The notes below the pieces were generated by a model. The model was given only the letters and a program-made list of their open reading frames with translations. It had not been told where the DNA came from and made no database searches. DNA of 33,696 nt from Mesorhizobium sp. Its GTDB lineage: Bacteria > Pseudomonadota > Alphaproteobacteria > Rhizobiales > Rhizobiaceae. Positions 6,306-31,532 of this stretch are shown here, in pieces. Each line of letters begins with the position of its first letter. Positions within the stretch are counted from its first letter, which is position 1. The stretch spans positions 1 to 33,696 of the forward strand of contig JAIPUZ010000087.1 of the NCBI GenBank assembly GCA_022833215.1, written 5' to 3'. Made by a program: the position numbers and the translations under genes.

Positions 6306-6349
6306 GATGGTGCCAATCTTCCTGATGGCCGCTTGGCCAGGTCGGAGCA

Positions 6350-6378
6350 GGTCACCGCACAAAAAATGCGCGGTGACC
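6350..6378 (-). repeat. Intercistronic 12-bp stem-loop
   Basis: On the - strand this reads GGTCACCGCGCA, a T5 loop, then TGTGCGGTGACC: 12 pairs, one of them a G-U wobble. It lies between the binding-protein stop (6397) and the molybdoenzyme start (6305). There is no T-run after the stem, so it is more likely an mRNA-stabilising or partial-attenuation hairpin than a terminator. It could uncouple strong binding-protein expression from low enzyme expression. Confidence 0.65.
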
Positions 6379-6396
6379 TCGTTTGGGCGCCCGACC

Positions 6397-13677: not shown

Positions 13678-14793
13678 TTATCCCGCAGCGGGTCGACGCA
13701 TCGCCGACACGTGTTCGCTGGAAGGGACCACGCGAACCGGGCCGGACGAAGCCGCCGCAGTTCCCGGTAACAGCGATGAGTTCCTCACAAAATCCCGCAT
13801 ACTCAAAATAGTGTTGCGGTTAAACCCCGCGCGAATTGTGCAGCTAGGCGCCAGGATCAGGTCGCCGATTGTTCCCATGGCCTGCAAGGAAGAGGCAATC
13901 TGTTCGCCGATCGCGGCGACGTCATTACTGGTTATAGACCGCCTGTCGATGCCGCCGACAACACATTTTCCAAAGGTCCGCGCCCCGGCCTCGACGCTGG
14001 GCAGCGTCTCCCAACTGTGCCAGTTGATTGCGTGGACAGGATAGTCCTGCAGTTCGCGGAAGCGGATACTCTCACCATGCAAATGGAGCACGTTGAACTG
14101 ACCCGAGGTGGCAGCGGCCAGCACTTCTATGTCGTAGGGGGCGACGAATTCGCTGAAACCGTCAAAGTCCAGCAATTGCCTGCCGGTATCCTGATGCGCA
14201 AAGAAAACCCCATTGGCTCCCGCTTCGAGCACGGCGCGCACATAGTCACGCGAAAGACTGGTCAGGGTCCGCAGCGCCGCATGCACCGCAGCGCCGCCGC
14301 CGGACTTGATGTGATCATAGACTGCGCCGTTGCTCAGCTTTGCCGCAATGGTCATCGGGCTGAATACGGTGCAGACGAGCGGCACGTCCGGAACGGCGGC
14401 ACGGACCTGGCGGAGCGAGCTCAACTCGCGTCCAAAGGCTCCTTTGCTGATGTCAGGCACGGGAAGCCCGGCCCAATCCCCGACATGACGATAAGGTGTG
14501 TGCACAACGCGCGCGACCCCGCCCCGCCCAACCTCGGAAAAGTCAAGATCGACGCCGAAGTCCTCGATGGCGTACATGCCATTGGGTGAGGTCTTGACGA
14601 GATCCAGGTCGAATTCGCGCTGGAGATTAACCGTCGCCTCGGCCAGCCGCCCGGCGTCGAGGTCCTCTTCCGGAAAGTGGGTCCAGAACGAGAATAGCGG
14701 CCGATGGGCACGAGCGCCGAAGACGCGCTGGATGGATTGGCTATACAACAAGTGGCGTTCCTCATACTGTCGCAAAGACAGATTAGGCGTCAA
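13678..14793 (-). CDS. Uroporphyrinogen decarboxylase/MtaA-like protein, possible zinc-dependent methyltransferase relative
   Basis: A 371-residue TIM-barrel protein of the UroD superfamily. It aligns best in my reading with MtaA/MtbA-type methylcobamide:coenzyme M methyltransferases rather than HemE: VLHLHGES (~235-242) matches the MtaA VLHICGN motif, and LILAPSCTI (~312-320) matches ILAPGCGI. These positions hold the zinc ligands His, Cys and Cys in MtaA; here they are H237, H239 and C318, so a metal site is likely. It is the first gene of the peptide-transporter operon. The frame opens with TTG at 14793 directly after an in-frame TGA; a second TTG at 14751 has a better GAGGAA site, so the exact start is uncertain. 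The substrate is unknown. Confidence 0.72.
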   Translation of the reverse strand: MTPNLSLRQYEERHLLYSQSIQRVFGARAHRPLFSFWTHFPEEDLDAGRLAEATVNLQREFDLDLVKTSPNGMYAIEDFGVDLDFSEVGRGGVARVVHTPYRHVGDWAGLPVPDISKGAFGRELSSLRQVRAAVPDVPLVCTVFSPMTIAAKLSNGAVYDHIKSGGGAAVHAALRTLTSLSRDYVRAVLEAGANGVFFAHQDTGRQLLDFDGFSEFVAPYDIEVLAAATSGQFNVLHLHGESIRFRELQDYPVHAINWHSWETLPSVEAGARTFGKCVVGGIDRRSITSNDVAAIGEQIASSLQAMGTIGDLILAPSCTIRAGFNRNTILSMRDFVRNSSLLPGTAAASSGPVRVVPSSEHVSAMRRPAAG

Positions 14794-16848: not shown

Positions 16849-17955
16849 TCAGGCTGCAATCACAATACTGGCTTGCTCTGGCCATTGGAGCCAGCAGCGC
16901 GCACCGTCGCTGACGGCCAGATCATGATCTTCCCCACTACGGATCACCATGCGTTCGATTCCCGAATCATCTTCGAACCGAAGGTAGGTAACGACACCGA
17001 GAAATTCCTTGCTGACGAGTTGTGCCGGGACAGCATTGATGCCTGGGACGCTGGCTTGCTTCTGTGGAGCCAGGCGAATGGCTTCCGGTCGCACACCAAC
17101 CGATACGCGCTCGCCTTCGCGTATCGTTTGCGCAGATGGTGCGCGGATTGAGAGGTTCGGTGCGATGGTAATGTCCAGCAGGCCACCCGTTTGTATTCCG
17201 ACCGTGCCTTCAAAATAGTTCATGTAGCCGATGAAATCGGCGACGAAACGACTGTTTGGCTTGTGGTACAGTTCGGCGCCGGTGCCGATCTGGGCGATGC
17301 GGCCGCGGTCCATGACAGCGATACGGTCGGCGATTGCCAGCGCTTCTTCCTGATCGTGGGTAACGATAATAGCCGTGATGCCTACCTTCTTGAGCAGAGC
17401 GCGCAGTTCGATACGCATGCCCTCGCGCAACTTCTTGTCGAGCGCCGAGAGCGGCTCATCGAGCAGCAGAACGGACGGTTCCGTCGCAATGGTTCGGGCA
17501 ATGGCGACCCGCTGCTGCTGGCCTCCTGAGAGCCTTGCGGGATAGGCATCGCGCAGGGCGGTCAATTCGAGCATGGCCAGGCTTGCGGTCTGTACCGCAT
17601 CGCGCCGCGCCGCCGCCACGTTCTTCATACGCAAGCCGAAGGTCACGTTGTCAGCGACGGTCATATGCGGAAAGAGCGCGTAATTCTGGAAAACCATGCC
17701 GACATTGCGCTGGTACGGCGGCACCTTGGTCATGATTTTTCCACCGACGGAAATGTCGCCTCTTAGCGGCGGTTGCAACCCGGCAATGGCGCGCAGCATC
17801 GTGGTCTTGCCGCAGCCGCTGGGACCGAGCAATGCCACGATCTCGCCAGGCTCGATCTCAAGATCGACATCGTCGAGAATGCGCTTGCCCTGCAGATCGA
17901 CCGTCAGCCCTCTAAGAGCCACGCCGCGCTTTTCGAGATTGAGCGAATAGGTCAT
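16849..17955 (-). CDS. Spermidine/putrescine-type ABC transporter ATP-binding protein, PotA-like
   Basis: A 368-residue ATPase. Walker A GPSGCGKTT (~48-56), Q-loop MVFQNYALFPHM, signature LSGGQQQRVAIART, Walker B LLLDEPLSALD and H-loop VTHDQEEAL are intact. The C-terminal ~110 residues form a TOBE domain (GVRPEAIRL ... FLGVVTYLRF). This layout fits the polyamine/opine/iron transporter class. The ATG at 17955 overlaps the permease stop by ATGA. It is the last gene of a four-gene importer operon. Confidence 0.92.
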   Translation of the reverse strand: MTYSLNLEKRGVALRGLTVDLQGKRILDDVDLEIEPGEIVALLGPSGCGKTTMLRAIAGLQPPLRGDISVGGKIMTKVPPYQRNVGMVFQNYALFPHMTVADNVTFGLRMKNVAAARRDAVQTASLAMLELTALRDAYPARLSGGQQQRVAIARTIATEPSVLLLDEPLSALDKKLREGMRIELRALLKKVGITAIIVTHDQEEALAIADRIAVMDRGRIAQIGTGAELYHKPNSRFVADFIGYMNYFEGTVGIQTGGLLDITIAPNLSIRAPSAQTIREGERVSVGVRPEAIRLAPQKQASVPGINAVPAQLVSKEFLGVVTYLRFEDDSGIERMVIRSGEDHDLAVSDGARCWLQWPEQASIVIAA

Positions 17956-18740
17956 CTGACCAACCTTTCCAGACCGATCCACTTTTCCATGAGATAGACC
18001 GCGAGGATTCCTCCAAGCATCGTCAGGGTCGAGAGTGCGGCAACAGTGGGATCGTTTTCCGTGCGAATGTATTGATAGGCGGCCACGGGCAGGGTCGGGC
18101 TGTTGCCGACCAGGAACATCGTGGCGGTGAAATTGTGGAACGACATGACGATCGCAAAGACCGCCGCTCCGAGCAGGCCCTTGCCCAACAAAGGCAAAGT
18201 GACATGCAGGAAAGCCTGGTGCGGCCGGGCGCCGAGCAACATCGCCGCGCTCTCCAGGTTCGGGTCCATACCCTGTAGATTGGCGACGACGAGCCGTACG
18301 ACATAGGGAAGCACGATCAGGCAGTGCAGCACGACCAGCACCGCCGTGTTGGAAATGAACAGCACCGTGTTCGCCCACAACAGCATGGCGATGCCCATGA
18401 CGATTTCCGGAACGAACAAAGGCGCCATCACGAACACGTTGGCGGCCTGCCGCCCAAAGAAACGGAAACGCACGATGGCAAGCGAGGCAAGCACCCCAAG
18501 CACCATGCTGACCGCGCAGCTGGTGGCCGCAAGCAGCAGGCTCTGTTTGATCCCCACCGCAAAGCTCGGCGTGCTGAAGACATTGGCATACCACTTGAGC
18601 GACAATCCGGTCGGCGGAAAGGCCAAGGTCGCCGCACTGTTGAAGGAAATCACAAGAATGAGCAGGTTCGGCAGCGCCATGAACAGGAGGACGCCGAAAG
18701 TCGTGATCTGAAGGATGGAAGGCATGGAACTGCGCGTCAT
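17952..18740 (-). CDS. ABC transporter permease, PotC-like
   Basis: A 262-residue permease with about six helices and the PotC pattern: a periplasmic GLSLKWYANVFSTPSF segment after helix 1 and an EAA loop (ESAAMLLGARPHQAFLHVTLPL). Its ATG overlaps the PotB-like stop by ATGA (18737-18740), and its own stop overlaps the PotA-like start in the same way. With the PotB-like protein it forms the channel. Confidence 0.9.
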   Translation of the reverse strand: MTRSSMPSILQITTFGVLLFMALPNLLILVISFNSAATLAFPPTGLSLKWYANVFSTPSFAVGIKQSLLLAATSCAVSMVLGVLASLAIVRFRFFGRQAANVFVMAPLFVPEIVMGIAMLLWANTVLFISNTAVLVVLHCLIVLPYVVRLVVANLQGMDPNLESAAMLLGARPHQAFLHVTLPLLGKGLLGAAVFAIVMSFHNFTATMFLVGNSPTLPVAAYQYIRTENDPTVAALSTLTMLGGILAVYLMEKWIGLERLVR

Positions 18741-19576
18741 CGTTGGAAACGCCTGTGGAAACGATCACCGGCCACCGTAAGGGCGAGAATAGCGGCGGCG
18801 GAAATCAGGAACAGGATACCGGCGGCTGCCGATCCCAGCGGCAGGTTGCCTAGATTGATGGACTGGTCGAAGATGAACACCGCGATCATGTCGACTCTGC
18901 CGCCGCCCAGAAGCATGGGCGTAACGAACGAGTTCAGCGACAAGAGGAAGCTCAGCATCGTTCCAGCCAGGATGCCGGGCACGCATAGTGGTACCGTGAT
19001 CAGCAGGAAGACCTGCCAGGGTGCCGCGCCAAGGAGTGCAGCCGCTTCCTGCAAGCGTTTGTCGAGCCGGGCGATCACCCCGTTGAGCGACAGGATCATG
19101 TAAGGCAGGATTCCGGAAATCAGGCCGACCAGAACGCCGAACTCGTTGAACATCAGCCGGAATGGTTCATCCGTAACGCCGAGCCAGAGCAGCAGCTTGT
19201 TGACCAGCCCCGTGCGCCCCAGAATGAGCACCAGACCGAACATTTTCAGCACGTAATCGCTCAGGAACATGGCCAGCAGCGCCGCGAAGATCAGCTTGCG
19301 CTGGCGGGGCGAGGCTTTGGTCTCCATGTAATAAGCCGCGGGAAAGCCGAGGACGAGTGCGACCGCCGTCGCTACCCCCGCCAACCACAGCGAGGACGTA
19401 AAGAACCGGCGATACGACGCATTGGTCACCAGGCTCTCATACTGCGCGAACGTCGCGCCGCTACCCGTTCCATCGTCGAGGCTCCAACCGAGCACTGACG
19501 ACAGCCCCATCAACAGCGTCACGATCAGGATGAACGACGGAACCACCAGCAAATAGGGCACAAGTCTCTGTCTCAT
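18737..19576 (-). CDS. ABC transporter permease, PotB-like
   Basis: A 279-residue permease starting MRQRLVPYLLVVPSFILIV, with an EAA loop (LQEAAALLGAAPWQVFLLITVPL) and GSFVTPMLLGGG-like C-terminal segment (NSFVTPMLLGGGRVDMIAV). This is typical of PotB/HisM-like polyamine or opine permeases. The ATG at 19576 is preferred to a TTG at 19618, which would place the start within an inverted repeat and has no ribosome site. Confidence 0.9.
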   Translation of the reverse strand: MRQRLVPYLLVVPSFILIVTLLMGLSSVLGWSLDDGTGSGATFAQYESLVTNASYRRFFTSSLWLAGVATAVALVLGFPAAYYMETKASPRQRKLIFAALLAMFLSDYVLKMFGLVLILGRTGLVNKLLLWLGVTDEPFRLMFNEFGVLVGLISGILPYMILSLNGVIARLDKRLQEAAALLGAAPWQVFLLITVPLCVPGILAGTMLSFLLSLNSFVTPMLLGGGRVDMIAVFIFDQSINLGNLPLGSAAAGILFLISAAAILALTVAGDRFHRRFQR

Positions 19577-19607
19577 TGATCTGCCCCCGGCTCGTACGGC
19601 ACTTTCG

Positions 19608-19631
19608 GGCAGGCGCAATCACACGCCTGCC
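19608..19631 (-). repeat. Intercistronic stem-loop 2 in the PotD-PotB gap
   Basis: GGCAGGCG (19608-19615) and CGCCTGCC (19624-19631) form a perfect 8-bp stem with an 8-nt loop. Without a T-run it is not a standard terminator. Together with the hairpin at 19658-19686 it fills the 133-bp gap after the binding-protein gene, a common way to stabilise the binding-protein mRNA or reduce read-through into the permeases. Confidence 0.6.
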
Positions 19632-19657
19632 GGAGGAAGACGCCTCTGGGGGAAGCT

Positions 19658-19686
19658 GGGGCCGATGGCATTTCCCTGTCGGCCCC
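19658..19686 (-). repeat. Intercistronic stem-loop 1 in the PotD-PotB gap
   Basis: GGGGCCGA (19658-19665) pairs with TCGGCCCC (19679-19686) over a 13-nt loop. It lies 23 bp after the stop of the binding-protein gene and before the second hairpin. No T-run follows in the - direction. Confidence 0.6.
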
Positions 19687-19709
19687 ACTTGCGTGATGAT
19701 ATGGAGTTC

Positions 19710-20738
19710 TCACTGAATTTCCTGCTGCCACCGGTCGTTCCACGCTGCCAGCTGGGTGGAGATCGTCGGCTCATCCATATAGCGGAATTGCGTATCGGCC
19801 GGCACCGCCTCGCGCAACTCGGGGGAAACCGCCGCCTGCGTGTTGATCGGCAGGCAGCCGAGCTGTTTGGCAATGCCTTCCTGCGCAACCTTGCCGATGG
19901 CAAAATCGATGAAGCGTGTGGCGGCCTCGACATCCGCGCCCTTCAGCATGACGATGTTGTTGATGCTGACGGGAATGAACGGCTTTGGCGAGACGAAGCG
20001 GAACTGCGGGCCGGCCTTGCGCAGGCTGAAATAGTTGGAAACCGGGGTAAAAGCGATAACATCTATCTCGCCGGACGACATCAGGCGGACCTGCTCGGCA
20101 TCGGAGGTGGTAAAGACCGAGAAGTTCGGCTTCATTTCCCTGGCCAGATCGAAACCGGGATCGACATTCTTTTCGTCCCCACCGGCAAGCGCAGCCAGGA
20201 GTGCGATGAATAGGCCATTGTAGTTGGCGCCGTAAGGCGCGCCGATCTTACCCTTCAGTCGCTCGTCCTTGAGATCGGTCCATTCCCTGATCTCGAACGG
20301 CGTCGTTTCCGAATTGTATATGATGCCGTAGGGCAGGTTCCAGACGCCGACGAAATTCTCGTTGGCCATGTTTTCCGGCAGATGCGCAGCATTGGCCAGC
20401 TTGTCCACCGGGATCGGCTCGAGCAGGCCATCGCGCATGGCCAGCGTTGCGGGTGAAATGGCGGAAAGCCACAGATCGTCGTCCATACGCCCCTTGTTGG
20501 CGCGCAGCGCTGCAAGCGTCTCCATGGAGGAGGACTGAAGCTGGATTTCGGAAGTGATGCCGCTTTGCGCTGCGAACGGATCCATCCAGTTGGCGCGCAT
20601 CGCTTCACCATAGGACCCGCCCCAGGCTATAATCTTCAGGAGCTTTTCCTGCGCCATTAGGCTGGATGTGTCCGCAAGTCCAACCGCGCCGCAAGCGGCC
20701 GCCAGCTTCATGAAATCCCGGCGATTGAATGTACCCAT
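19710..20738 (-). CDS. ABC transporter substrate-binding protein, spermidine/putrescine type (PotD-like)
   Basis: A 342-residue periplasmic protein. The N-terminus MGTFNRRDFMKLAAACGAVG carries a twin-arginine motif (NRRDFMK), so export is probably by the Tat system. The mature protein begins KLLKIIAWGGSYGEAMRANW, typical of PotD/extracellular family-1 proteins, and includes VWNLPYGIIYNSETTPF and WTDLKDERLKGKIG. The ATG at 20738 has GGGGAGGAAAA upstream; a longer open frame lacks a site. It is the first gene of the operon, and is divergent from the XRE-cupin regulator. Confidence 0.9.
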   Translation of the reverse strand: MGTFNRRDFMKLAAACGAVGLADTSSLMAQEKLLKIIAWGGSYGEAMRANWMDPFAAQSGITSEIQLQSSSMETLAALRANKGRMDDDLWLSAISPATLAMRDGLLEPIPVDKLANAAHLPENMANENFVGVWNLPYGIIYNSETTPFEIREWTDLKDERLKGKIGAPYGANYNGLFIALLAALAGGDEKNVDPGFDLAREMKPNFSVFTTSDAEQVRLMSSGEIDVIAFTPVSNYFSLRKAGPQFRFVSPKPFIPVSINNIVMLKGADVEAATRFIDFAIGKVAQEGIAKQLGCLPINTQAAVSPELREAVPADTQFRYMDEPTISTQLAAWNDRWQQEIQ

Positions 20739-20833
20739 GGTTTTCCTCCCCGTTTGACGCAGCTCGAAGCTGCTGATGACTATCCCCTGATATACGCCCG
20801 CTCTCCTCCTGAGGTGACGCCGGCGTGTTTCCG

Positions 20834-20855
20834 ATAAGGAATAATAGTCCCTTAT
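20834..20855. promoter_or_regulatory. Candidate operator, inverted repeat ATAAGG-N10-CCTTAT
   Basis: Perfect 6-bp arms separated by 10 bp, in the 200-bp AT-rich region between the divergent PotD-like gene and the XRE-cupin gene. The position fits binding by the adjacent regulator. No direct evidence links them. Confidence 0.5.
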
Positions 20856-20859
20856 GGAA

Positions 20860-20869
20860 ATGCAAGCAT
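20860..20869. promoter_or_regulatory. Short inverted repeat ATGC-AA-GCAT in the divergent promoter
   Basis: A 10-bp near-palindrome just beside the larger inverted repeat. The core TGCAAG recurs in the perfect palindrome at 21911-21920 before the lactonase-like gene. It could be part of a common site for the XRE-cupin protein. Confidence 0.35.
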
Positions 20870-20938
20870 ATTTTTGATGCAATCGTTTCTTCCCCATGCT
20901 ACGGGGCAAAAATCAGGAAACTACGCAGAGGCAGCGTC

Positions 20939-21580
20939 GTGAACGGCGATCCATTTCGCGGCAAGAATGAAGATTCGGCTGTCGTGGGCCCCGGAGAACC
21001 AGGTCAAGGCTTCCGTCCGGAGCAATCTGTCGGCGCCCGGCTGCGAGCCATTCGGCAAGCGCGGCGCTGGACCCTGGAGGAAGCCAGCAAACGCAGCTCT
21101 GTCGGACGCTCCACCCTGTCCAAGATCGAAAACGACCTCATGTCGCCGACCTTCGATCTCCTGAAAAAGATCACCCGTGGCATGGAGATCGACCTCGTCG
21201 AGCTTTTCGACGAGCGGCAACAGGAGCAAGAACCGCGCGGGCGCAGGAGCATTACCCGCAGGGGCGAGGGGAAGGTCAATCTGACCCGGGCCTACAGCCA
21301 CGAACTAATCGCCACCGACATGAAATCAAAGCGCATGCTGCCGTTTCGTACGACGGTCATGGCGCGCTCCCTCGACGATTTTAGCGGCTGGGAACGCCAT
21401 GACGGCGAGGAAGTGCTGATGGTCGCGTCTGGCGCGGTCGAGGTGCACACCGAATACTATGCGCCCACGAGGCTGGAAGTCGGCGACTCGATCTATTTCG
21501 ACAGTCGCATGGGCCATTGCGTAATCTCGGTAAGCGAGAACGACGCGGAAGTTCTGTGGGTCAGCTCCGGCGCGATGTAG
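20939..21580 (+). CDS. XRE-family regulator with C-terminal cupin domain
   Basis: A 213-residue cytoplasmic regulator. The helix-turn-helix spans roughly residues 30-85 (VGARLRAIRQARRWTLEEAS, GRSTLSKIENDLMSPTFDLL) and a cupin barrel fills the C-terminus (HDGEEVLMVASGAVEVHTEYY, LEVGDSIYFDSRMGHCVISV). This layout is shared with PuuR-type regulators that sense small molecules such as polyamine or amino-acid intermediates. The GTG at 20939 is chosen because AGAGG lies 7 bases before it; the earlier ATG at 20825 would place 38 low-quality residues across the promoter palindromes. It is divergent from the PotABCD-like operon, which it probably controls. Confidence 0.83.
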   Translation: MNGDPFRGKNEDSAVVGPGEPGQGFRPEQSVGARLRAIRQARRWTLEEASKRSSVGRSTLSKIENDLMSPTFDLLKKITRGMEIDLVELFDERQQEQEPRGRRSITRRGEGKVNLTRAYSHELIATDMKSKRMLPFRTTVMARSLDDFSGWERHDGEEVLMVASGAVEVHTEYYAPTRLEVGDSIYFDSRMGHCVISVSENDAEVLWVSSGAM

Positions 21581-21968: not shown

Positions 21969-22823
21969 ATGACTCTTACCGTGCAGGTGCTGAATTTCGG
22001 CAACATCCGCGGCGACTGGACGGCCCAGCTAGCCGGCCGCAAGCAAGGGCGCCGCGTGCTTACGCCCACCAACGCTTTCCTGATCCAGGGGGGCGAATAC
22101 CCGGTTCTGGTCGATGCTGGCACGCGCAGCGTCGAGGCGCTGACGCGACTGCCGCTCGGGCTGGAGACGGAGTTTGGTGAAGAGCACAGCCTCGAGGCGC
22201 AGCTTGCCAGCCACGGCGTTCGGGCCGAGGACATCGGGATGATCATTCTGACCCATCTCCACGTCGACCATGCCGGTTATCTCGACCGTTTCCCGATGAC
22301 CGTCCCGGTCATGCTCTGCCGCAGGGAACTTGAATTCGCCTTCAGCGGTGCCAGTCCGATAGATTATGCGCCGGAAGATCTCCATCACATCGTCGAGCGA
22401 CTCTATACGCCGGGGGCGCTTGGCATGTTCGACCTGTCCTTCGGTGAGCGTGCGCCTGTCCTGCCGGGCATCAGCGTCGTGTGCCTCGCCGGCCATACGC
22501 CAGGCAGCATCGCCGTCGTCGTCGATACGGAGGCCGGCGCGGTCTGCATCTGCGGTGACGTCGTCTACGATGTGCACGGCACCTTCGTGGCGCGAACCGG
22601 CCAGATCCACGCTTTCGAACCGCAGACCTCCGGCAATTTCGCAACGAGCCGGGTCGAGGAAAAGCGGGCGATCAAGCTGGCTGCGAGCCTCGGCCGGTTC
22701 CTCTATCCCTCGCATGACCACCACGGCGCGGTTATGGAAGACGGTCAGATCGTCGGTCGCATCGGCCGCACCATCCCAGGCCCCATACTGCCGCTGGATC
22801 TGAAATATGCCACGGCGCCCTGA
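21969..22823 (+). CDS. Metallo-beta-lactamase-fold hydrolase, AHL-lactonase-like (AttM/AiiA group)
   Basis: A 284-residue cytoplasmic hydrolase. The dinuclear metal motif is HLHVDH (~H96, H98, D100, H101), with further ligands in AGHTPGS (~H176), CICGDVVYD (~D197) and YPSHDHH (~H249-251). Length and spacing fit N-acyl homoserine lactonases such as AttM/AiiA, and NAFLIQGGEYPVLVDAG is typical of that group. The ATG at 21969 follows AAAGGGAGA. Adjacent tautomerase and XRE-cupin genes suggest a catabolic role (lactone opening) as well as, or instead of, quorum quenching. Confidence 0.82.
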   Translation: MTLTVQVLNFGNIRGDWTAQLAGRKQGRRVLTPTNAFLIQGGEYPVLVDAGTRSVEALTRLPLGLETEFGEEHSLEAQLASHGVRAEDIGMIILTHLHVDHAGYLDRFPMTVPVMLCRRELEFAFSGASPIDYAPEDLHHIVERLYTPGALGMFDLSFGERAPVLPGISVVCLAGHTPGSIAVVVDTEAGAVCICGDVVYDVHGTFVARTGQIHAFEPQTSGNFATSRVEEKRAIKLAASLGRFLYPSHDHHGAVMEDGQIVGRIGRTIPGPILPLDLKYATAP

Positions 22824-24341: not shown

Positions 24342-24761
24342 TCAGTATCGGCGGCGCAAAAGGCCGCGCCGGGCATAGACGGCCACGGCCTCATCGATCA
24401 GCGCGGCGATTGCATCGGCGCCGTAGTCGCGCCGCAGCATCTCGGCGCGCGCCGTCAACAGGGCCGGGTCTGTCACGCGCCCGGGGCGCAGCATTTCGTA
24501 TGTTTCGAGGATCACGTCCTGCGGCACCGAGACCAGTTCCGCCCCGCGCTCGAAATTCAGCGCCAGCCGATCGCGGCCGGCGGATCGCGCGATGCCGGCC
24601 TGAAGCCGGAGCGCCTCGGCGGAGATGCGGATATCGGTGGCGGCGACACGGCCCGCCAGAACCTCTTCGAGCGTCAGCCGCTCCAGCGGCATTCCGGACG
24701 CCGACACGGCAAGTTCCGGCGCATTCTCGGAGATCGGATAGAGATCGAGAGGATCGGTCAT
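24342..24761 (-). CDS. Diol/glycerol dehydratase small (gamma) subunit
   Basis: A 139-residue subunit of adenosylcobalamin-dependent diol/glycerol dehydratase. Family signatures are LYPISENAPEL at the N-terminus, LTLEEVLAGRVAATDIRIS, LRLQAGIARSAGRDRLALNF, and VPQDVILETYEMLRPGR, ending in VYARRGLLRRRY. The length is normal for PduE/DhaE proteins without the long N-terminal microcompartment-targeting helix found in PduE, which fits a soluble enzyme. The start overlaps the fused large-medium subunit stop by ATGA. Confidence 0.9.
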   Translation of the reverse strand: MTDPLDLYPISENAPELAVSASGMPLERLTLEEVLAGRVAATDIRISAEALRLQAGIARSAGRDRLALNFERGAELVSVPQDVILETYEMLRPGRVTDPALLTARAEMLRRDYGADAIAALIDEAVAVYARRGLLRRRY

Positions 24762-27025
24762 GTCGGGATACCTCCCTGGCCCAGCGTCATGGACAGTTCG
24801 AGCGGCGGCGCATCCGCCACCACCAACCCGGTTTCGATGGCGTAGAGCATCGCGACACGGACATGGTAGCGCGCGGCAAGTGATTGGCCGTCCACCGGCA
24901 CGACGATGGGCTCGGGCGCCTCGCCTCCGGCGTAGAGCGCCGCGTTGCGTCCCATTGCCCGGTAGTGTTCCAGCGTCGTTACCGGCGCATTGGAGAAAAG
25001 CTCGATGTTCATGTGGGGCAGCCGGTCGGCGCGATGGATCACCGCCGTGCCCTTGGCCTGGATGCCGATGCCGTAGCCCGAACCCGAGAGCCGCGCGGCC
25101 GTCAGGCCGAGAAACGAGGTGTCTGCGGTATGGCGCATCCGCACCAGCCGCGGTGTCCCGCCGCCTTCCCGAATACCCTCGGTCAGAGCCAGAACGACGT
25201 CGATCAGATCGTGCCCGGCCGTGGTCCGGGTCAGCTCGACGCCGAAGGCGGGGCTGAGCCCGATGACGATGTCGCGAGGGTCGTCACCCTTCACCGCCTC
25301 GCCCGTTGCCACGAGCCACGGGGTGGTGGTCGGGTCATGGCGGCGCTCGCGCTCCAGCACGGAGGCACGCGTCTGCAACCCCCGCACCTCGCACACGGCC
25401 TGCCAGCGCGCATCGGACATGCGATAGCCGCTCCCCGGCCCCTGATAGTCGTTGGGGTCGTTGAGCGCACTGATGATCCTGCCGTCCCGCAGGATGGCCG
25501 AGGTCTGCAGATAGTCGCCCGAAATGCGCTGGCGCAGCATGAACAGAAGGTTTTCCGCCTCCTCGCCGAAGCCGCGCCTGGAAAGCGCACGAACCACGTC
25601 GACAGCGGTCAGGCCACGCGTGCGGATCGCCTCGCTGATGCGCGTGACTTCGCCGGGGTTGAAACTGTCCGTATCCTGCGAGCCGGAGGCCGTTGCCACC
25701 GACTGCACCCATTCCTCCGGGACTTTTTTCAGGTCCAGTTCCTCGAACACGGCCGCGATGGCGCGGATCGCGCGCATGCGCAATTGCTCGACGCTGCTTT
25801 CGGTGATCGGGGTCAGGCCGCCGTCCGCCTCGAAGTCGCGCTGCAGCGTGAGGTAATCCTCGATCTCCTCGCCGTTGAACAGGGACGGGTTGAAGGTGTT
25901 GTCATATTTGCGGATCGAGCCGAAGCCGGAGCAGATCAGGTCGGAGCCGGCCATGAGATAGGGCGTGATCTTGGCGCCGACGCGGATTTCCGACTCGCTG
26001 ACGCGGGTGTCGTTGCCGGAGGCGCATTCGAGCCCGAGCCAGACGGCGATGAGATTTTCCGCCATCAGTTCACGCATGCCGCCCGCCATCGAGGAGGTCA
26101 GCGGGGCGCCGTCGATGCCGCCGTTCTGGGTGCCCTGCACGCCCATGGCGCGTTGCAGGCACAGACAGCGCGCTTCCAGGTAGAGCACCGACTGGCGCTC
26201 GTGGAAGCCCATCAGCAGTTCAGATGACGCACCCGACGTGCAGCGCGCCTTGATCCCCCGCGACGCATAGGCGGCGGTGAGGAAAGCCTTCGACCATGGC
26301 GTGTCGTCCCCGTCGACGAATGCCGCCTCGGTGCCGTAGACGGAAACCGTTTCCGCGTAGGAGGTGAAGCCGGCCATGCCGATCTGCAACTCTTCCGCTT
26401 CCTCGATGGAGCACTGGAAGAGCACGCCGCCGCGCCCGACGGCGGCGCCGACCGCGCAGGCCATGGCGTTGGCCCAGGAGTTCGACGCGACCCGCATCGT
26501 GGTCTCGATCTCGTCGAAGCCGAGCGCGACGGCGAAGGCGGCGTCGGCCGCAAGCTGGAGCGGGTCGTCCTTGGCGTTGGTGACATGCGCCTGGTTGCCA
26601 GGGGTGCGGCGCTGGCGCATCTTGGAATAGGCGAAGGTGATCTCGAGCGACGACATGGCCGCGACCACCGACACCAGCTTGGCGGGTGTCATGCCGCGCG
26701 CCAGACGCTCCAGTTTTTCACGCGGAACGTTGATGTCGACCAGCATCCGCGCCACGTCGACCGGATCCATCGCCATTGCCTCGTCGATCACCTCCGGGTC
26801 GAGGTGATGCGCGGCGATGTAGGCATCGAGAATATCGAAGTCCTTTTCCGCCTTGCCGTCGATCTCGACCACGCGTCCGTTTTCAACACGGGCGGAGGGC
26901 GCGGGGTCCCACGGGCTGTGGAAGGTAGCGAAACCCGCTTCCACGTCTTCGGCGGCAAACAGGTCGTGACGTAGCTGGCGGGTATCCCACTCGTCGAAAC
27001 GACGCCAGCGCGGGGTGGAAGTCAT
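24758..27025 (-). CDS. B12-dependent diol/glycerol dehydratase, fused large and medium subunits
   Basis: A 755-residue fusion. Residues ~1-545 are the TIM-barrel large subunit and ~581-755 the medium subunit, joined by a ~35-residue linker. Compared with Klebsiella diol dehydratase, active-site residues H143, E170, E221, Q296, D335 and S362 correspond, with a constant offset of four, to H147 (QAHVTN), E174, E225 (SYAETVSVYGTE), Q300 (GVQGTQNGG), D339 (ASGNDTR) and S366. The enzyme is thus expected to be active, converting glycerol, 1,2-propanediol or a similar vicinal diol to an aldehyde through an adenosyl radical. The ATG at 27025 follows AAGGAGAGG. Fused forms are known from some actinobacteria. 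Here the enzyme lies directly behind an ABC importer, with no reactivase or shell gene in the window. Confidence 0.92.
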   Translation of the reverse strand: MTSTPRWRRFDEWDTRQLRHDLFAAEDVEAGFATFHSPWDPAPSARVENGRVVEIDGKAEKDFDILDAYIAAHHLDPEVIDEAMAMDPVDVARMLVDINVPREKLERLARGMTPAKLVSVVAAMSSLEITFAYSKMRQRRTPGNQAHVTNAKDDPLQLAADAAFAVALGFDEIETTMRVASNSWANAMACAVGAAVGRGGVLFQCSIEEAEELQIGMAGFTSYAETVSVYGTEAAFVDGDDTPWSKAFLTAAYASRGIKARCTSGASSELLMGFHERQSVLYLEARCLCLQRAMGVQGTQNGGIDGAPLTSSMAGGMRELMAENLIAVWLGLECASGNDTRVSESEIRVGAKITPYLMAGSDLICSGFGSIRKYDNTFNPSLFNGEEIEDYLTLQRDFEADGGLTPITESSVEQLRMRAIRAIAAVFEELDLKKVPEEWVQSVATASGSQDTDSFNPGEVTRISEAIRTRGLTAVDVVRALSRRGFGEEAENLLFMLRQRISGDYLQTSAILRDGRIISALNDPNDYQGPGSGYRMSDARWQAVCEVRGLQTRASVLERERRHDPTTTPWLVATGEAVKGDDPRDIVIGLSPAFGVELTRTTAGHDLIDVVLALTEGIREGGGTPRLVRMRHTADTSFLGLTAARLSGSGYGIGIQAKGTAVIHRADRLPHMNIELFSNAPVTTLEHYRAMGRNAALYAGGEAPEPIVVPVDGQSLAARYHVRVAMLYAIETGLVVADAPPLELSMTLGQGGIPT

Positions 27026-27082
27026 CTCACCTCTCCTTCCCTGTCCGTTCGAGCCAAAGCCGCCTCCCTCATGCCCCCGCGA

Positions 27083-27244
27083 TCAGAACCAGCGCAGCCA
27101 CAAAAGCTGGATGACGATCAGGACGATGACGTCCCAGAAGATCACCTCGCCGATGGTGAACCATCGATGCTTGCGGTTGACACGCCAGAAGCCGAACCAG
27201 ACGACCGCGGACAACAGCACGGGAACGAAGCCGACGAGCGTCAC
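27083..27244 (-). CDS. Small two-helix membrane protein of the importer operon
   Basis: A 53-residue protein starting at GTG 27244 in a GTGA overlap with the ATPase stop (27241-27244), with GAGAGG five bases upstream. It has two hydrophobic segments (VGFVPVLLSAVVWFGFW, ~4-20, and VIFWDVIVLIVIQLLWL, ~34-50) joined by a basic loop RVNRKHRWFTIGE, and ends RWF. The tight coupling argues that it is real and made with the importer. I do not recognise a named family; a small accessory subunit of the permease is plausible, as small membrane genes accompany some rhizobial glycerol/polyol importers. Confidence 0.72.
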   Translation of the reverse strand: MTLVGFVPVLLSAVVWFGFWRVNRKHRWFTIGEVIFWDVIVLIVIQLLWLRWF

Positions 27245-28293
27245 CGCAGCCTCTCCCCCGTGCTGGCGTCGAAATAGTGCAAGGCCTCGCGTGGAAAACG
27301 CAGACCGACCGGCTGCCCGACCTCGATATGGTCGCAGTTCTTCTGCGTCCGCACCGTCAGCGCGCCCGCCCCGGTCTGGAAAATGAGCAGCGTATCGGGC
27401 TCGATCAGTTCCCTGACATCGACGGCAAGGGTGATCGCGTCCTCGCTTCCGGCTTGCACGAGTTCGACCTGCTCGGGGCGGATGCCCAGCGTTACCGGCC
27501 CTTCGGGACGATCGACGGGGCAAGCAATATCGCCGGCGCGGAAGATGCCGTCCCTGACGATACCCTCGATCGTGTTCATGGCGGGCCGGCCCATGAATTC
27601 GGCCACGAACCTGTTGGCGGGCTCGCGATAGATCGTGCGCGGCTCGTCGAACTGCACCAGCTTGCCGTCCCTGAGCACCGCGATGCGCGTCGCCAGCGTC
27701 ATCGCCTCTTCCTGGTCGTGCGTGACGAAGACGAATGTCTTGCCGAGGCGCCGGTAGAGGCGACTGAGCTCGGTGCGCATATGCAGGCGCAGCAGCGCAT
27801 CGAGGTTGGAGAGCGGCTCGTCCATGACGCAGATGGTCGGCTCCCAGACCAGGGCCCGCGCCACCGCCACACGCTGCGCCTGACCGCCCGAAAGCTGGGC
27901 GGGCTTTCGATGCAGGTAGTTGCCGATCTGCAGCAAGTCGGCGATGGCACCCACGCGGCTTTCGATGTCGGCCTTGCCGACTTTGCGAATGCGCAGCGGA
28001 TAGGCGATGTTCTCGAACACGCTCTTGTGGCTGTAGAGGGCGTAGTTCTGGAAAACCATGCCGATCCCGCGCATGCGCGGCGGCAGGTGGGTGATGTCCT
28101 TGCCGTTGATCTCGATGCGCCCTTCCGACGACGTTTCGAGCCCCGCCAGAAGCCGGCAGGCCGTCGTCTTGCCCGAACCCGACGGGCCGAGCAGGACGAT
28201 GAACTCGCCCTGGTCGAACTCAAGGTTCAGCCGGTCGAGGGCCCTGGTTCCGTCGGGAAATTTCTTGGTGACTTCTCTGAACGAGACACCCAT
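27241..28293 (-). CDS. Carbohydrate/polyol-type ABC transporter ATP-binding protein, UgpC/MalK-like
   Basis: A 350-residue ATPase: Walker A GPSGSGKTT (~35-43), Q-loop MVFQNYALYSHK, signature LSGGQAQRVAVARA, Walker B ICVMDEPLSNLDA, H-loop FVTHDQEEAM. The C-terminal ~100 residues are a TOBE/OB domain (LGIRPEQVELV) as in MalK/UgpC proteins of the CUT1 class. The ATG at 28293 has CGGAG upstream. Its stop overlaps the small membrane protein start. Confidence 0.92.
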   Translation of the reverse strand: MGVSFREVTKKFPDGTRALDRLNLEFDQGEFIVLLGPSGSGKTTACRLLAGLETSSEGRIEINGKDITHLPPRMRGIGMVFQNYALYSHKSVFENIAYPLRIRKVGKADIESRVGAIADLLQIGNYLHRKPAQLSGGQAQRVAVARALVWEPTICVMDEPLSNLDALLRLHMRTELSRLYRRLGKTFVFVTHDQEEAMTLATRIAVLRDGKLVQFDEPRTIYREPANRFVAEFMGRPAMNTIEGIVRDGIFRAGDIACPVDRPEGPVTLGIRPEQVELVQAGSEDAITLAVDVRELIEPDTLLIFQTGAGALTVRTQKNCDHIEVGQPVGLRFPREALHYFDASTGERLR

Positions 28294-28319
28294 GGGTAAC
28301 TCCGTGAATTCTTGCGGGT

Positions 28320-29138
28320 TCAGCCCTTGACCGCACCGAAGGTGAGGCCGCGGACAAGGTGCTTCTGCACCAGGAACGTGAAGACGAGGATCGGCAGGGT
28401 GGCGACGACGGCGACGGCCGCCACCTGCCCCCACAGCGTCCCATGCGGCGTGATCAGCCCGGGGATGCCGACCGTCAGCGGACGGCCCTCGAACGCCACG
28501 AGGATGAAGGCATAGAGGAACTCGTTCCACGACAGGATGAAGCAGAGCACGGCGGTGGCCGCCATGCCGGGCGCCGCCATGGGAACGACGACCCGCACGA
28601 AGGCGCCGAGCTTGGAGCGGCCGTCCATCATCGCCGCCTCGTCGATTTCCCGCGGGATCTCGGCAAAGAAGCCGCGCATCATCCACACGACCAGCGAGAG
28701 ATTGAAGCTCGTATGCGCGATCACCACGGCGTAGATCGTGTCGGTGAGCCCGAGTGCCGTGAAGAACATGAACAGCGGCACCGCGATGGAGATGGGCGGG
28801 GCCATGCGCGTGGTGAGGAAAAAGAAGAACAGGTCTTCCTTGCCGGCAAAATCGGTGCGCGCGAACACATAGGCCGCCGGCACGCCGATGCCGATCGACA
28901 GCACCGTCGACGAAATGGAGATGATCAGCGAATTGAGCACCAGCGGCAGGTAGTCCTTGCCGAGGAAGACCTCCGGGTAGTTGCTGAAGGTCGGCGTGAA
29001 GAACCAGCGCGGATCGGGCGACAGAATATCCAGGCGCCCTTTGAAGGACGTCAGCAGAATCCACAGATAGGGCGTCAATGCGATGACCAGCACGCAGGCA
29101 AGGATGCCGATGGCCAGTATCTTCCAGGACTTGTTCAT
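28320..29138 (-). CDS. Carbohydrate-type ABC transporter permease, UgpE/MalG-like
   Basis: A 272-residue permease of the CUT1 class with about six helices. The N-terminus LVIALTPYLWILLTSFKGR, the periplasmic FSNYPEVFLGKDYLPLVLNSL segment and the EAA loop (EIDEAAMMDGRSKLGAFVRVVVPMAAPG) are typical of MalG/UgpE. It lies 26 bp before the ATPase and 9 bp after the partner permease. Confidence 0.92.
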   Translation of the reverse strand: MNKSWKILAIGILACVLVIALTPYLWILLTSFKGRLDILSPDPRWFFTPTFSNYPEVFLGKDYLPLVLNSLIISISSTVLSIGIGVPAAYVFARTDFAGKEDLFFFFLTTRMAPPISIAVPLFMFFTALGLTDTIYAVVIAHTSFNLSLVVWMMRGFFAEIPREIDEAAMMDGRSKLGAFVRVVVPMAAPGMAATAVLCFILSWNEFLYAFILVAFEGRPLTVGIPGLITPHGTLWGQVAAVAVVATLPILVFTFLVQKHLVRGLTFGAVKG

Positions 29139-29147
29139 GGCCGCCCC

Positions 29148-30071
29148 CTACACCTTGCCGACCGGCGACTTCCAGTACACGGCCTTGTAGAAGATCGAGC
29201 ACAGGATCAGCACGACGAGGTAGACCATGAAAGCCACCGTCGCGCCGTAGCCGAGGTTCCAGTTCTTGAAATTGACGCGGTAGGCGTAGATCGACAGCAG
29301 TTCGGATACGGTGCCGGGGCCGCCGCCGGTCAGGATGAAGACCTTGTCGAATTCCTTGAAGGCGTCGATGCCGCGCAGGAGCAGGACAAGGGCGATGATC
29401 GGCCTCAGCAAGGGCAGCATGATATCGATGAATTGCCGCCACGGCCCGGCGCCGTCCATAGTCGCGGCCTCGAAGGGCGCCTTCGGCAGGCTCATGAGGC
29501 CGGCCAGGATGATCAGCGTCACGAACGGCGTCCACTGCCACACGTCGATGGCTATGATCGTCGGCATCACGAGATAGGGCGTGGAAAAGACCGCGCTCTG
29601 CTGGGACAGCAGCCCCACCGCCCGCAGGTAGTAGCTGACCATGCCGAAGTCGCCCTGCAGCAACAGCCGCCAGATCAGGCCAACGGCGACGGGCGCCAGC
29701 ATCATCGGAACCAGAAGCAACGTAGTCAACAGCCTCTGGCGCTCGATGAAGCGCCAGATCAGCCAGGCCAGTGCGAAGCCGAGCGCGAACTCGACCGTCA
29801 CGCTCGCCACGACGAAGCGGATGGTCAGCCAGAACGAATCCCAGAAGACGGGATCGTTGCGCACCAGTTGCCGGAAATTGTCGAGCCCGATGAAAGCGCC
29901 GTTCTGGTCCGGATTGGCATAGCTCAGGTCGGTCATGGCCGTATAAGCCATGTAGCCGAACGGCCCCACCAGGAAGACCAGCACGAGCAGCGTCGCCGGC
30001 AGCAACAGGGGCAGCGACGCTCCCCTGTCCAGCAGGAATCGCCCGCGCGAAAGCTGTTTGACTGTATTCAT
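29148..30071 (-). CDS. Carbohydrate-type ABC transporter permease, UgpA/MalF-like
   Basis: A 307-residue permease. It has the MalF/UgpA N-terminus (LPATLLVLVFLVGPFGYMAYTA), the FIGLDNFRQLV periplasmic motif, and the EAA loop (FEAATMDGAGPWRQFIDIMLPLL). The ATG at 30071 is chosen, but a GTG two codons upstream (30077) is also possible. It is the second gene of the operon, 63 bp after the binding protein. Confidence 0.9.
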   Translation of the reverse strand: MNTVKQLSRGRFLLDRGASLPLLLPATLLVLVFLVGPFGYMAYTAMTDLSYANPDQNGAFIGLDNFRQLVRNDPVFWDSFWLTIRFVVASVTVEFALGFALAWLIWRFIERQRLLTTLLLVPMMLAPVAVGLIWRLLLQGDFGMVSYYLRAVGLLSQQSAVFSTPYLVMPTIIAIDVWQWTPFVTLIILAGLMSLPKAPFEAATMDGAGPWRQFIDIMLPLLRPIIALVLLLRGIDAFKEFDKVFILTGGGPGTVSELLSIYAYRVNFKNWNLGYGATVAFMVYLVVLILCSIFYKAVYWKSPVGKV

Positions 30072-30134
30072 GACCACCGCTCATGCTTTCCCGCGAGTGC
30101 CCTCACGGGGAAGGGTTTGTCTGGATGAAGAGGA

Positions 30135-31532
30135 TTACTCGACCGGGTACTTCATCGGCGCGCAGGAACCGAGCAGGGTGGAGATGTCCTGCGCCGACCT
30201 GTCGAGCGCTTCCTTCGCCGTCTTCTCATCGGCGAGATAGGAAGAAAGCTCGCGCACCAGGATATCGGTCATCTCGCCCGACAGCGGCACAGTAGGCTTG
30301 GACCTGGCCACGGCGTTGGAGTCCATGGACGCCCTGGAATACGGCAGCTTCTGCACCTCCTCTGATGAATAGACGTCCGGGCGCGCCGTCGCGCCGCCGT
30401 TGAGGTGCTGGTTGAGCTGCTGGTCGTAGTCCATCATCCACTGGATGAAGAGGTAGGCAGCTTCCTTGTTCTTGGACGAGGTGGGCACCAGATAGGACCA
30501 GCCCTCGACCTGGGCGACCTTGCCGCCCTCGCCCTGGGGCACGATGTCGAACCCCATCTTGCCGACCACCGTCGAAGCCGATTCATCGACGGCGACCGCA
30601 TAGGTCGAGTCGTTCCACATGATGAGCTGGGCGACTTCCCCCTGCTGCATCAGGGCCATCACGTCGTCCCAGAAATAATTCAGCGTATCCGGCGGCGAGA
30701 ACGCCTTGAGGCTCTTGTAGTATTCCGTCGCGGCAATGGCCTGCGGGCTGTTGACGATAACCGGGCCGCATTCCGAGCCCGATTTCGTATCGAGCATGTC
30801 GCCGCCGAAGGAGTAGAGGAAGTTCAGCCACTCGTACCACAGCGCCTCGTGGCGCTTGCCCTGCAGCGCGGTGCCGTAGAGCCGCTGGTCGGGGCGCGTG
30901 AACCATTCGGCGATATCGCGATACTGCTTCCAGTCCTGCGCCGGGGCGAGGTCGTAGCCGTACCTGGCCTTGAACCCTTCCTTCTCCTTCTCGTCCGAGA
31001 GGAGGTCGGAGCGGTACCACATGTACATGCTGAGAGCCGTGAACGGAAAGCCGTAGACCTTGCCGTCGTACCAGGAGATTTCCTTCCACAGGCGCGGATA
31101 AAGCTGGTCCTCGGGCTTGAACTGCGGGTCGCGCAATTCGGCGCTGTCGAGATATTTCTCCAGCGATCCCAGATGGCCGTTGGTGACGAACTTGCCGAGT
31201 TCCCGGTGGGGCTGGATGATGAAATCGTAGCGGCCGCGCCTGGAATTGAGATCGAGCATGACCTTGTTGACGGCCTCGGAGTGCTCGTACATCTCGATCT
31301 CGACCTTGATGCCGGTGCGCTTCTCGAATTCCGGCGCGAGCTTCTTCATGGCTTCGAGCGGCGGAAGGGCCTCGCCGATCGTCCGAATGGTAGCGCCCTT
31401 GTAAGGTGCTGCCGCTTCCTCCAGCGACCAGGCGGCGGCGGTGGAAACCTGGCTCACCACGCTGGTCGTGCCCAGCGCGACGGCGATCATCGCCGCGCCC
31501 AGGGTTCCTCTGGTCAATCTATTCGCAAGCAT
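30135..31532 (-). CDS. Extracellular solute-binding protein, family 1 (carbohydrate/polyol ABC importer)
   Basis: A 465-residue periplasmic protein. Residues 1-~34 are a signal peptide (MLANRLTRGTLGAAMIAVAL ... STAAAW). Landmarks of family-1 sugar/polyol binding proteins are LPPLEAMKKLAPEFEKRTGI, YDFIIQPHRELGKF, WYDGKVYGFPFTALSMYMWY and VAQVEGWSYLVPTSSKNKEA. The ATG at 31532 has AGGGGAG upstream; the much longer open frame covers the intergenic region and is not credible. It starts the operon that ends with the dehydratase and SDR, so glycerol, 1,2-propanediol-like or another polyol is the likely ligand. Confidence 0.9.
   Translation of the reverse strand: MLANRLTRGTLGAAMIAVALGTTSVVSQVSTAAAWSLEEAAAPYKGATIRTIGEALPPLEAMKKLAPEFEKRTGIKVEIEMYEHSEAVNKVMLDLNSRRGRYDFIIQPHRELGKFVTNGHLGSLEKYLDSAELRDPQFKPEDQLYPRLWKEISWYDGKVYGFPFTALSMYMWYRSDLLSDEKEKEGFKARYGYDLAPAQDWKQYRDIAEWFTRPDQRLYGTALQGKRHEALWYEWLNFLYSFGGDMLDTKSGSECGPVIVNSPQAIAATEYYKSLKAFSPPDTLNYFWDDVMALMQQGEVAQLIMWNDSTYAVAVDESASTVVGKMGFDIVPQGEGGKVAQVEGWSYLVPTSSKNKEAAYLFIQWMMDYDQQLNQHLNGGATARPDVYSSEEVQKLPYSRASMDSNAVARSKPTVPLSGEMTDILVRELSSYLADEKTAKEALDRSAQDISTLLGSCAPMKYPVE

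Follow-up and report, generated by a model that had tools for sequence, protein, structure and literature searches.

We analysed a 33,696-nucleotide stretch of Mesorhizobium sp. DNA (GenBank assembly GCA_022833215.1, contig JAIPUZ010000087.1, forward strand; hereafter the window, contig C87 in our numbering). It encodes an ATP-binding cassette (ABC) importer followed by an adenosylcobalamin (AdoCbl)-dependent diol/glycerol-type dehydratase whose large and medium subunits are fused into one chain. The genes lie on the minus strand, from position 31532 down to 23522, in the order CUT1-type binder, two permeases, ATPase, 53-residue membrane protein, fused dehydratase, small subunit and short-chain dehydrogenase/reductase (SDR). 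The features are listed here with lengths in amino acids (aa) and with identities to the four relatives described below, L001 to L004.

30135..31532, minus strand: CUT1-type solute-binding protein, 465 aa; PF01547 (SBP_bac_1), 112.6 bits; 83-91% identity in L001-L004
29148..30077, minus strand: ABC permease 1 (UgpA/MalF type); PF00528; top NCBIfam model UgpA, below its cut-off
28320..29138, minus strand: ABC permease 2 (MalG type); PF00528; top NCBIfam model MalG, below its cut-off
27241..28293, minus strand: ABC ATPase (UgpC/MalK type, TOBE domain); PF00005 and PF08402; UgpC 367.9 bits against a cut-off of 432
27083..27244, minus strand: 53-aa predicted membrane protein (by sight); its GTG start overlaps the ATPase stop (translationally coupled)
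24758..27025, minus strand: fused large and medium AdoCbl-dependent diol/glycerol-type dehydratase, 755 aa, with a D301/T336/T373 pocket; assigned by domains, alignment and tree
24342..24761, minus strand: small subunit, 139 aa; PF02287, 133.4 bits
23522..24322, minus strand: SDR-family dehydrogenase, 266 aa; PF13561, 187.3 bits
32021..32878, plus strand: LuxR-type regulator with a GerE domain, divergent from the importer gene; candidate regulator of the cassette

A first-pass annotation, made from the letters of the window, had described these genes as lying on one strand with short gaps; reading frames and domain matches agree with it on genes, coordinates, strand and spacing. The ATPase gene overlaps the 53-aa gene by 4 bases, as the fused gene does the small-subunit gene, and the remaining intergenic gaps measure 9-57 bases. 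The importer has the CUT1 make-up (a SBP_bac_1 binder, two BPD_transp_1 permeases and a TOBE-type ATPase), and the nearest solved chains to its binding protein are, judged by name, maltose, sugar, trehalose/maltose and sorbitol binders. The 53-aa protein has no Pfam or NCBIfam match. In the fused protein, PF02286 spans residues 6-549 (712 bits) and PF02288 residues 591-704 (79.4 bits). These two profiles and PF02287 all exceed their cut-offs; the NCBIfam medium- and small-subunit models stay below theirs. The alignment of the small subunit to the gamma chain of 1dio begins at its residue 7, opposite gamma residue 42, and the small subunit therefore lacks an N-terminal extension; the earlier description of a subunit without a targeting extension is thus upheld against solved gamma chains. 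No Rfam family reached its gathering score in the window, and hence no known cobalamin riboswitch was found there; a CobO-type adenosyltransferase is encoded in the same genome. That assembly comprises 131 contigs and 4.5 Mb with an estimated contamination of 4.43%, so statements about the window's own genome hinge on correct contig placement.

Scanning bacterial and archaeal genomes, we confirmed 157 relatives and retained 80 of them (L001-L080); by title, these are alphaproteobacteria or metagenome-assembled genomes (MAGs) named only Proteobacteria, Pseudomonadota or "bacterium." The search for the same gene order that the first-pass annotation had proposed found order and orientation kept, at protein identities of 68-97%, in a Gemmobacter MAG, Pseudaminobacter soli, Mesorhizobium sp. 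YM1C-6-2 and Chelativorans sp. Marseille-P2723 (L001-L004). All four carry the 53-residue protein (70-74% identity), of which no copy was found in the remaining 76 loci, and the LuxR gene (69-92%), which is also retained in L006 (44%). Given this conserved order, the arrangement of the cassette is not due to chance. We also drew a sample of 397 genomes from the same taxonomic order, 32 of which carry a dehydratase of the superfamily at E 1e-50 or better; in at least three cases the same genome appears under two handles (G003/G381, G012/G141 and G016/G692).

The substrate pocket was compared in an alignment of 78 fused rows, namely the window and 77 of the 80 loci (L036, L041 and L042 were left out), with chain 9vi2 as the reference. 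This is a glycerol dehydratase chain, taken as that of K. pneumoniae, in a construct that joins into one chain an enzyme naturally made of two. Positions are given in Klebsiella oxytoca numbering. Positions 141, 143, 170, 296, 301, 336 and 362 match residues named in PMC7674605, and the remaining pocket and catalytic positions are named by the same scheme.

Residues Q141, H143, E170, E205, E208, E221, Q296, D335 and S362 are intact in 78/78 fused rows, so the earlier claim that the active-site residues are in place stands. Other positions have changed throughout: S301D, C302G, I303A and V173M each occur in all 78 rows, and residues 298-304 read G-G-(I/V)-D-G-A-P in 76, the other two differing solely at the last place. 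Q336 is replaced by Ala (54 rows), Thr (18), Cys (4) or Val (1) and kept as Gln in one row, and M373 is replaced by Ser (73) or Thr (5). The pocket of the window enzyme, which is ~48% identical to a Klebsiella enzyme overall, is D301, T336 and T373, not the S301/Q336/M373 of propanediol/glycerol dehydratase proper. Those three residues are kept in all nine unfused-type comparison rows (9vi2, Klebsiella michiganensis, E. coli pduC, Listeria, Cetobacterium, three haloarchaea and G420). D301 also occurs in all 24 further fused loci that cover the site; one more, L175, does not cover it. As placed by the alignment, the C3-facing pocket residues are altered relative to the nine unfused rows, and the neighbouring side chains are smaller. 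In PMC7674605, the C3 hydroxyl of glycerol in its inactivating conformation is described as pointing at Ser301. The altered pocket, which was absent from the earlier observation, appears to point away from propanediol and glycerol. We tentatively narrow the first-pass suggestion of a "larger or scarcer diol" to a cationic amino-diol as the leading candidate.

Phylogenetic analysis, from which L023, L047, L059, L074, L079 and L087 were left out, placed the fused D301 rows in a single fully supported clade. This clade splits into clade I, which includes the window, and clade II, with L053 and L070 outside both. Position 336 is Thr in 16 and Cys in 4 of 22 clade I rows and Ala in 54/54 clade II rows, and a CUT1 binder of type A or B is present in 15 of the 24 clade I loci. 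Mycobacterial fused enzymes lie outside the sampled fused rows, and an E. coli plasmid locus whose large subunit adjoins an IS26 copy (L099) was left out of the analysis. One genome (G698; L174/L187, contig C1) encodes a 743-aa fused dehydratase with S301 kept, A336, L373 and E208N, and has no PF08841 match. The tree places this enzyme outside the D301 clade, yet a single clade of all fused rows was not rejected by the test (p 0.106); the enzyme is possibly an independent fusion, but we do not claim it as a second one without a reactivase.

We searched for the reactivase using the PF08841 profile at a cut-off of 24.6 bits. There was no match in the window's own genome or in any of the 50 genomes behind L001-L050, and none above the cut-off in the 28 genomes behind L051-L080 (L068 was left out, and L067 sits in a genome already searched), in G324, G381, G141 and G058, or in two plasmid records bearing the fused gene. 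Fused-bearing G470 has a sub-threshold match of 20.8 bits. In contrast, all three unfused control genomes gave a strong match. Within the sample from the same taxonomic order, PF08841 was found in 0/26 genomes with the fused type versus 5/5 with the unfused type. The 26 comprise the window's own genome, three others and a further 22, among which G507 does not cover D301; of the five, three were read directly (unfused, S301), and G499 and G569 were counted as unfused because their match ends where that of G597 does. Related genomes in these counts are not independent evidence. An annotated reactivase subunit lies nearby in six of seven aligned unfused plasmid loci, the stretch of the seventh, E. 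coli pdu, being too short. The same taxonomic order also has an operon with an unfused enzyme, an extended small subunit and a reactivase (G597, L188), and the sole PF02288 match in the window's own genome is the fused domain itself. The first-pass annotation had asked whether a reactivase lies elsewhere in the genome; none was found there, nor above the cut-off in any fused-bearing genome searched.

According to PMC7674605, the reactivase is thought to act by swapping the beta (medium) subunit, and an engineered fused enzyme was inactivated more slowly, a result obtained in cell lysate only. A medium-subunit swap is hard to picture in a one-chain enzyme, which fits fused enzymes managing without a reactivase and is no proof of it. 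The fused enzymes may do without the known reactivase.

Shell genes gave a different picture. The PF00936 profile (PF03319 was not part of the search) had no match in the window's own genome or in G001-G004, and with the PF08841 result this agrees with the earlier description of a compact cassette without reactivase or shell genes. Features of a Pdu-type microcompartment are likewise missing, as the genome lacks PF00936 and the small subunit is short. However, of the 48 fused-bearing genomes searched, 20 do have a PF00936 match (21/49 counting the Pdu-type control G420), and shell-gene homologues lie within 16 of 83 dehydratase loci; "without shell" is therefore true of the window's subtype and not of the family. 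A shell or reactivase locus in relatives had been named in advance as evidence against the compact pathway: shell genes do adjoin the dehydratase in some distant relatives, which partly bears out that objection, though the window genome and G001-G004 have none; no reactivase exceeded the cut-off in any fused-bearing genome searched. In L069 (5191-5619) and its kin, a cluster of 8 loci, the alphaproteobacterial shell genes are interspersed with one for a 142-aa protein that matches no Pfam family at E 1e-5.

We then compared the genes near the dehydratase, counting nine amine-type reference genes, drawn from the case loci, anywhere in the fetched stretch of 83 loci; as controls we chose 40 stretches, each 20 kb long, in 19 of the genomes that carry these loci. 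The set covers a kinase, a class III enzyme, an isochorismatase-type hydrolase, an SBP_bac_8 binder, an amino-acid-transporter-like permease, a GATase and a betaine-aldehyde dehydrogenase (BADH)-like dehydrogenase. At least one such gene occurs in 69 of the 83 loci versus 0/40 control stretches. By group, these are 17/24 loci in clade I and 52/57 in clade II, to which eight L001-L080 loci absent from the tree were assigned by default, and none for L053 and L070. Among the 57 clade II loci, the isochorismatase-type hydrolase occurs in 44, the SBP_bac_8 binder (PotD-like by sight) in 30 and the amino-acid-transporter-like permease in 21; the clade II kinase is closest to solved chain 6ef6 (297.4 bits), which we take to be M. 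smegmatis 1-amino-2-propanol kinase.

In clade I, the type B loci have the order permease, binder, permease, dehydratase, small subunit, ATPase, SDR, phosphotransferase, class III enzyme and GntR, as annotated on plasmids of Agrobacterium cucumeris and Shinella zoogloeoides. Their class III enzyme is closest to the phospholyases 5g4i (357 bits) and 6tor (339.5 bits), the next best match scoring 173.6. In seven Mesorhizobium loci, an SDR gene adjoins those for the kinase and the class III enzyme, and the window SDR is 60-62% identical to its product. In L004, a dehydrogenase gene directly after the SDR gene is closest to betaine-aldehyde/aminobutyraldehyde models, below their cut-offs, and is the sole amine-type gene in the window's subtype. 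Past the cassette in this Chelativorans locus (L004:15203-19347), genes for methylmalonyl-CoA mutase and a biotin carboxylase-type subunit lie on the opposite strand. In the window's own genome, one long frame matches both phospholyase and kinase (1176 aa; 302.5 and 130.9 bits), and G002 has a similar one (1036 aa). We do not claim an amino-alcohol route through a phospholyase and a kinase for the window, since G003/G381 and G004 are without a clear pair.

Our favoured reading, to which we give about an even chance, is that the operon would import and degrade a small cationic amino-diol, that is, a vicinal diol whose C3 bears an amino or ammonium group, and would do so without the known reactivase. 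The simplest candidate substrate may be 3-amino-1,2-propanediol or an N-substituted form of it. In the proposed mechanism, the importer would take up the amino-diol, and the D301 carboxylate would bind its ammonium group at the site where, with glycerol, Ser301 would lie opposite the C3 hydroxyl. The fused enzyme, with the small subunit and AdoCbl, would apply the usual radical mechanism to C1-C2 and move the C2 hydroxyl to C1, giving a 3-amino-aldehyde. This product may be processed by a betaine-aldehyde/aminobutyraldehyde-type dehydrogenase, as encoded beside the SDR in L004, or by other enzymes. Because chain fusion would block the medium-subunit swap, the enzyme would have to inactivate slowly or be replaced. 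We infer the charge of the substrate, the product and the independence from a reactivase. Among the matches listed in our literature search, there was no account of the breakdown of 3-amino-1,2-propanediol; "1-aminopropanediol," of unclear isomer, is listed in PMC4192682 among bean root exudates at zero phosphorus, a weak ecological hint.

Several observations weigh against this reading. The nearest solved relatives of the binding protein are named for sugars or sorbitol, and Asp is able to bind hydroxyl groups, not ammonium alone. In the table of variants in PMC7674605, S301A and Q336A slowed inactivation by glycerol and raised inactivation by 1,2-propanediol, and the double variant was worse on both by kcat/kinact, so the natural pocket changes are not simply readable as resistance. 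Our structure models are weak, with a predicted local distance difference test (pLDDT) score of 47.2 for the binding protein (11 sequences) and 67.7 for the dehydratase (40 sequences), and were not used for claims; the placement of D301 therefore rests on alignment to solved relatives. The neighbour test shows linkage and not substrate, since its reference genes were taken from the case loci, and when the threshold was relaxed to 100 bits, the phospholyase references found a match in one control stretch and the BADH-like reference in two. No tested amine gene lies near the dehydratase in the window, L001-L003, L006, L016, L022, L053, L070 or five clade II loci, and no clear phospholyase and kinase pair was found in G003/G381 or G004, so the amine argument rests mainly on cousins of the window. 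Glycerol kinase is encoded near a D301-type dehydratase in three Ancylobacter loci and one of Xanthobacteraceae (L008, L012, L014 and L015). These four loci have a nearby ABC system with a 585-aa binder to which no NCBIfam name is given at E 1e-20. Rhizobia import glycerol by an ABC system, and with glycerol kinase and an ABC system near the enzyme in these loci, ABC uptake is not odd in itself, contrary to the first-pass view that it is unusual.

The main rival, which we judge rather unlikely, is that the substrate is a larger neutral polyol or deoxy-polyol (at least four carbons, or a substituted glycerol), with D301 hydrogen-bonding its hydroxyls and the transporter serving as an ordinary polyol importer. 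A CUT1 importer whose binder has relatives named for maltose, sugar and sorbitol would suit this substrate, and so would a wider pocket, which could accommodate longer chains. Importer parts in L006 are ribose/xylose-like, below model cut-offs, and an FGGY-family kinase is annotated near L082 and seen by sight near L022. However, D301 is equally invariant in clade II, where 52 of 57 loci have amine-type genes nearby, and type B loci have same-strand kinase and phospholyase-like genes after the dehydratase.

It seems improbable to us that the enzyme has kept glycerol or 1,2-propanediol as its substrate, as a fused form adapted to resist inactivation and supplied by a glycerol importer. In its favour, every catalytic residue is retained, glycerol kinase lies near the enzyme in the four loci above, and PMC7674605 lists the fused enzymes of Mesorhizobium loti and Mycobacterium smegmatis among candidates for converting glycerol. 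On the other hand, S301, Q336 and M373 are present in 9/9 unfused rows, whereas S301 or M373 is found in none of the 78 fused rows and Q336 in one, and the window's own genome has neither a shell (PF00936) nor a reactivase (PF08841) match. We consider very doubtful a third alternative, in which the same class of substrate binds in reverse to give an amino-ketone (for example, aminoacetone) that the SDR would reduce to 1-amino-2-propanol, with kinase, phospholyase and acylating dehydrogenase leading on to propionyl-CoA: type B and Mesorhizobium loci do group the dehydratase with SDR, kinase and class III enzyme genes, the clade II kinase is nearest to the presumed 1-amino-2-propanol kinase 6ef6, some loci border on shell genes and on a gene for an aldehyde dehydrogenase of the acylating type (below model cut-offs), and methylmalonyl-CoA mutase is encoded near L004, but S301 faces the substituent on the carbon losing its hydroxyl, which favours the amino-aldehyde, the window cassette has no kinase or lyase, and we know of no family member that converts a terminal diol to a ketone.

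The cassette resembles known systems in part. Like PduCDE and DhaB (PDB 1DIO and 1IWP), it has large, medium and small domains, all checked catalytic residues and a separate small subunit. It differs in the large-medium fusion, the S301D/Q336T/M373T pocket, the lack of a reactivase match, the lack of a small-subunit extension and the dedicated ABC importer. Natural large-medium fusion itself is already published: for alpha-beta fusions in Mesorhizobium loti and Mycobacterium smegmatis, PMC7674605 cites Liu 2010. They are fusions of the same kind, and the Mesorhizobium loci here presumably encode the same enzyme as that of M. loti; they appear as glycerol-conversion candidates in the excerpts of PMC7674605 available, which mention no D301 pocket, reactivase absence or amine setting. 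The engineered fused glycerol dehydratase cited in the same paper (PDB 9vi2 and kin) is a one-chain alpha-beta enzyme like that of the window; however, it is man-made and retains the S301/Q336/M373 pocket. RMM/Aut microcompartment loci (PMC4207490, PMC6620236) share with part of the family shell, kinase, class III and acylating-type dehydrogenase genes near the dehydratase, whereas the window genome and G001-G004 have no PF00936 match. In RMM2 loci, the diol dehydratase lies on the other strand, and the compartment was judged not to use it or else to be bifunctional (PMC4207490); an amino-propanol compartment was proposed in PMC6620236. We found no report of the D301 pocket, an amino-diol substrate or the missing reactivase in the fused family in the literature searched, which lies mostly outside subscription papers.

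Elsewhere in the window, a second ABC importer lies on the minus strand (16849-20909). It consists of a TOBE-type ATPase, two permeases (by sight) and an SBP_bac_8 binder that looks PotD-like by sight but did not qualify as homologous to the one in clade II. An XRE-cupin regulator adjoins it (20825-21580, plus strand), and a metallo-beta-lactamase-fold protein is encoded at 21969-22823 (plus strand), its best match, an N-acyl homoserine lactone (AHL) lactonase, being below the cut-off. A URO-D-fold protein (13678-14793, minus strand; PF01208, 81 bits) forms a run with a dipeptide-type ABC importer, a peptidase and an alpha/beta hydrolase (by sight); URO-D-fold proteins include corrinoid methyltransferases. 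Downstream of this run lies a molybdopterin oxidoreductase (4011-6614, minus strand; PF00384 and PF01568).

Self-inactivation is a main limit of this enzyme class, and a reactivase is its usual partner. A natural fused lineage with altered sites that affect inactivation and with no reactivase match offers a way to test how a radical B12 enzyme manages on its own. Tentatively, and at somewhat under an even chance, we propose that a branch of the B12 diol dehydratases became amino-diol dehydratases. In this branch, Asp in place of Ser would select cations, fusion would remove both the means and the need for a reactivase, and alphaproteobacteria would have built the enzyme into a number of amine-import and amino-alcohol pathways, some with microcompartments and some lacking them. 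If the amino-diol substrate is true, it would be a new reaction for the enzyme class and would correct the "propanediol/glycerol family dehydratase" labels in alphaproteobacteria, such as those on the A. cucumeris and S. zoogloeoides plasmids. It could also explain the diol dehydratase genes in amino-alcohol microcompartment loci (compare PMC4207490).

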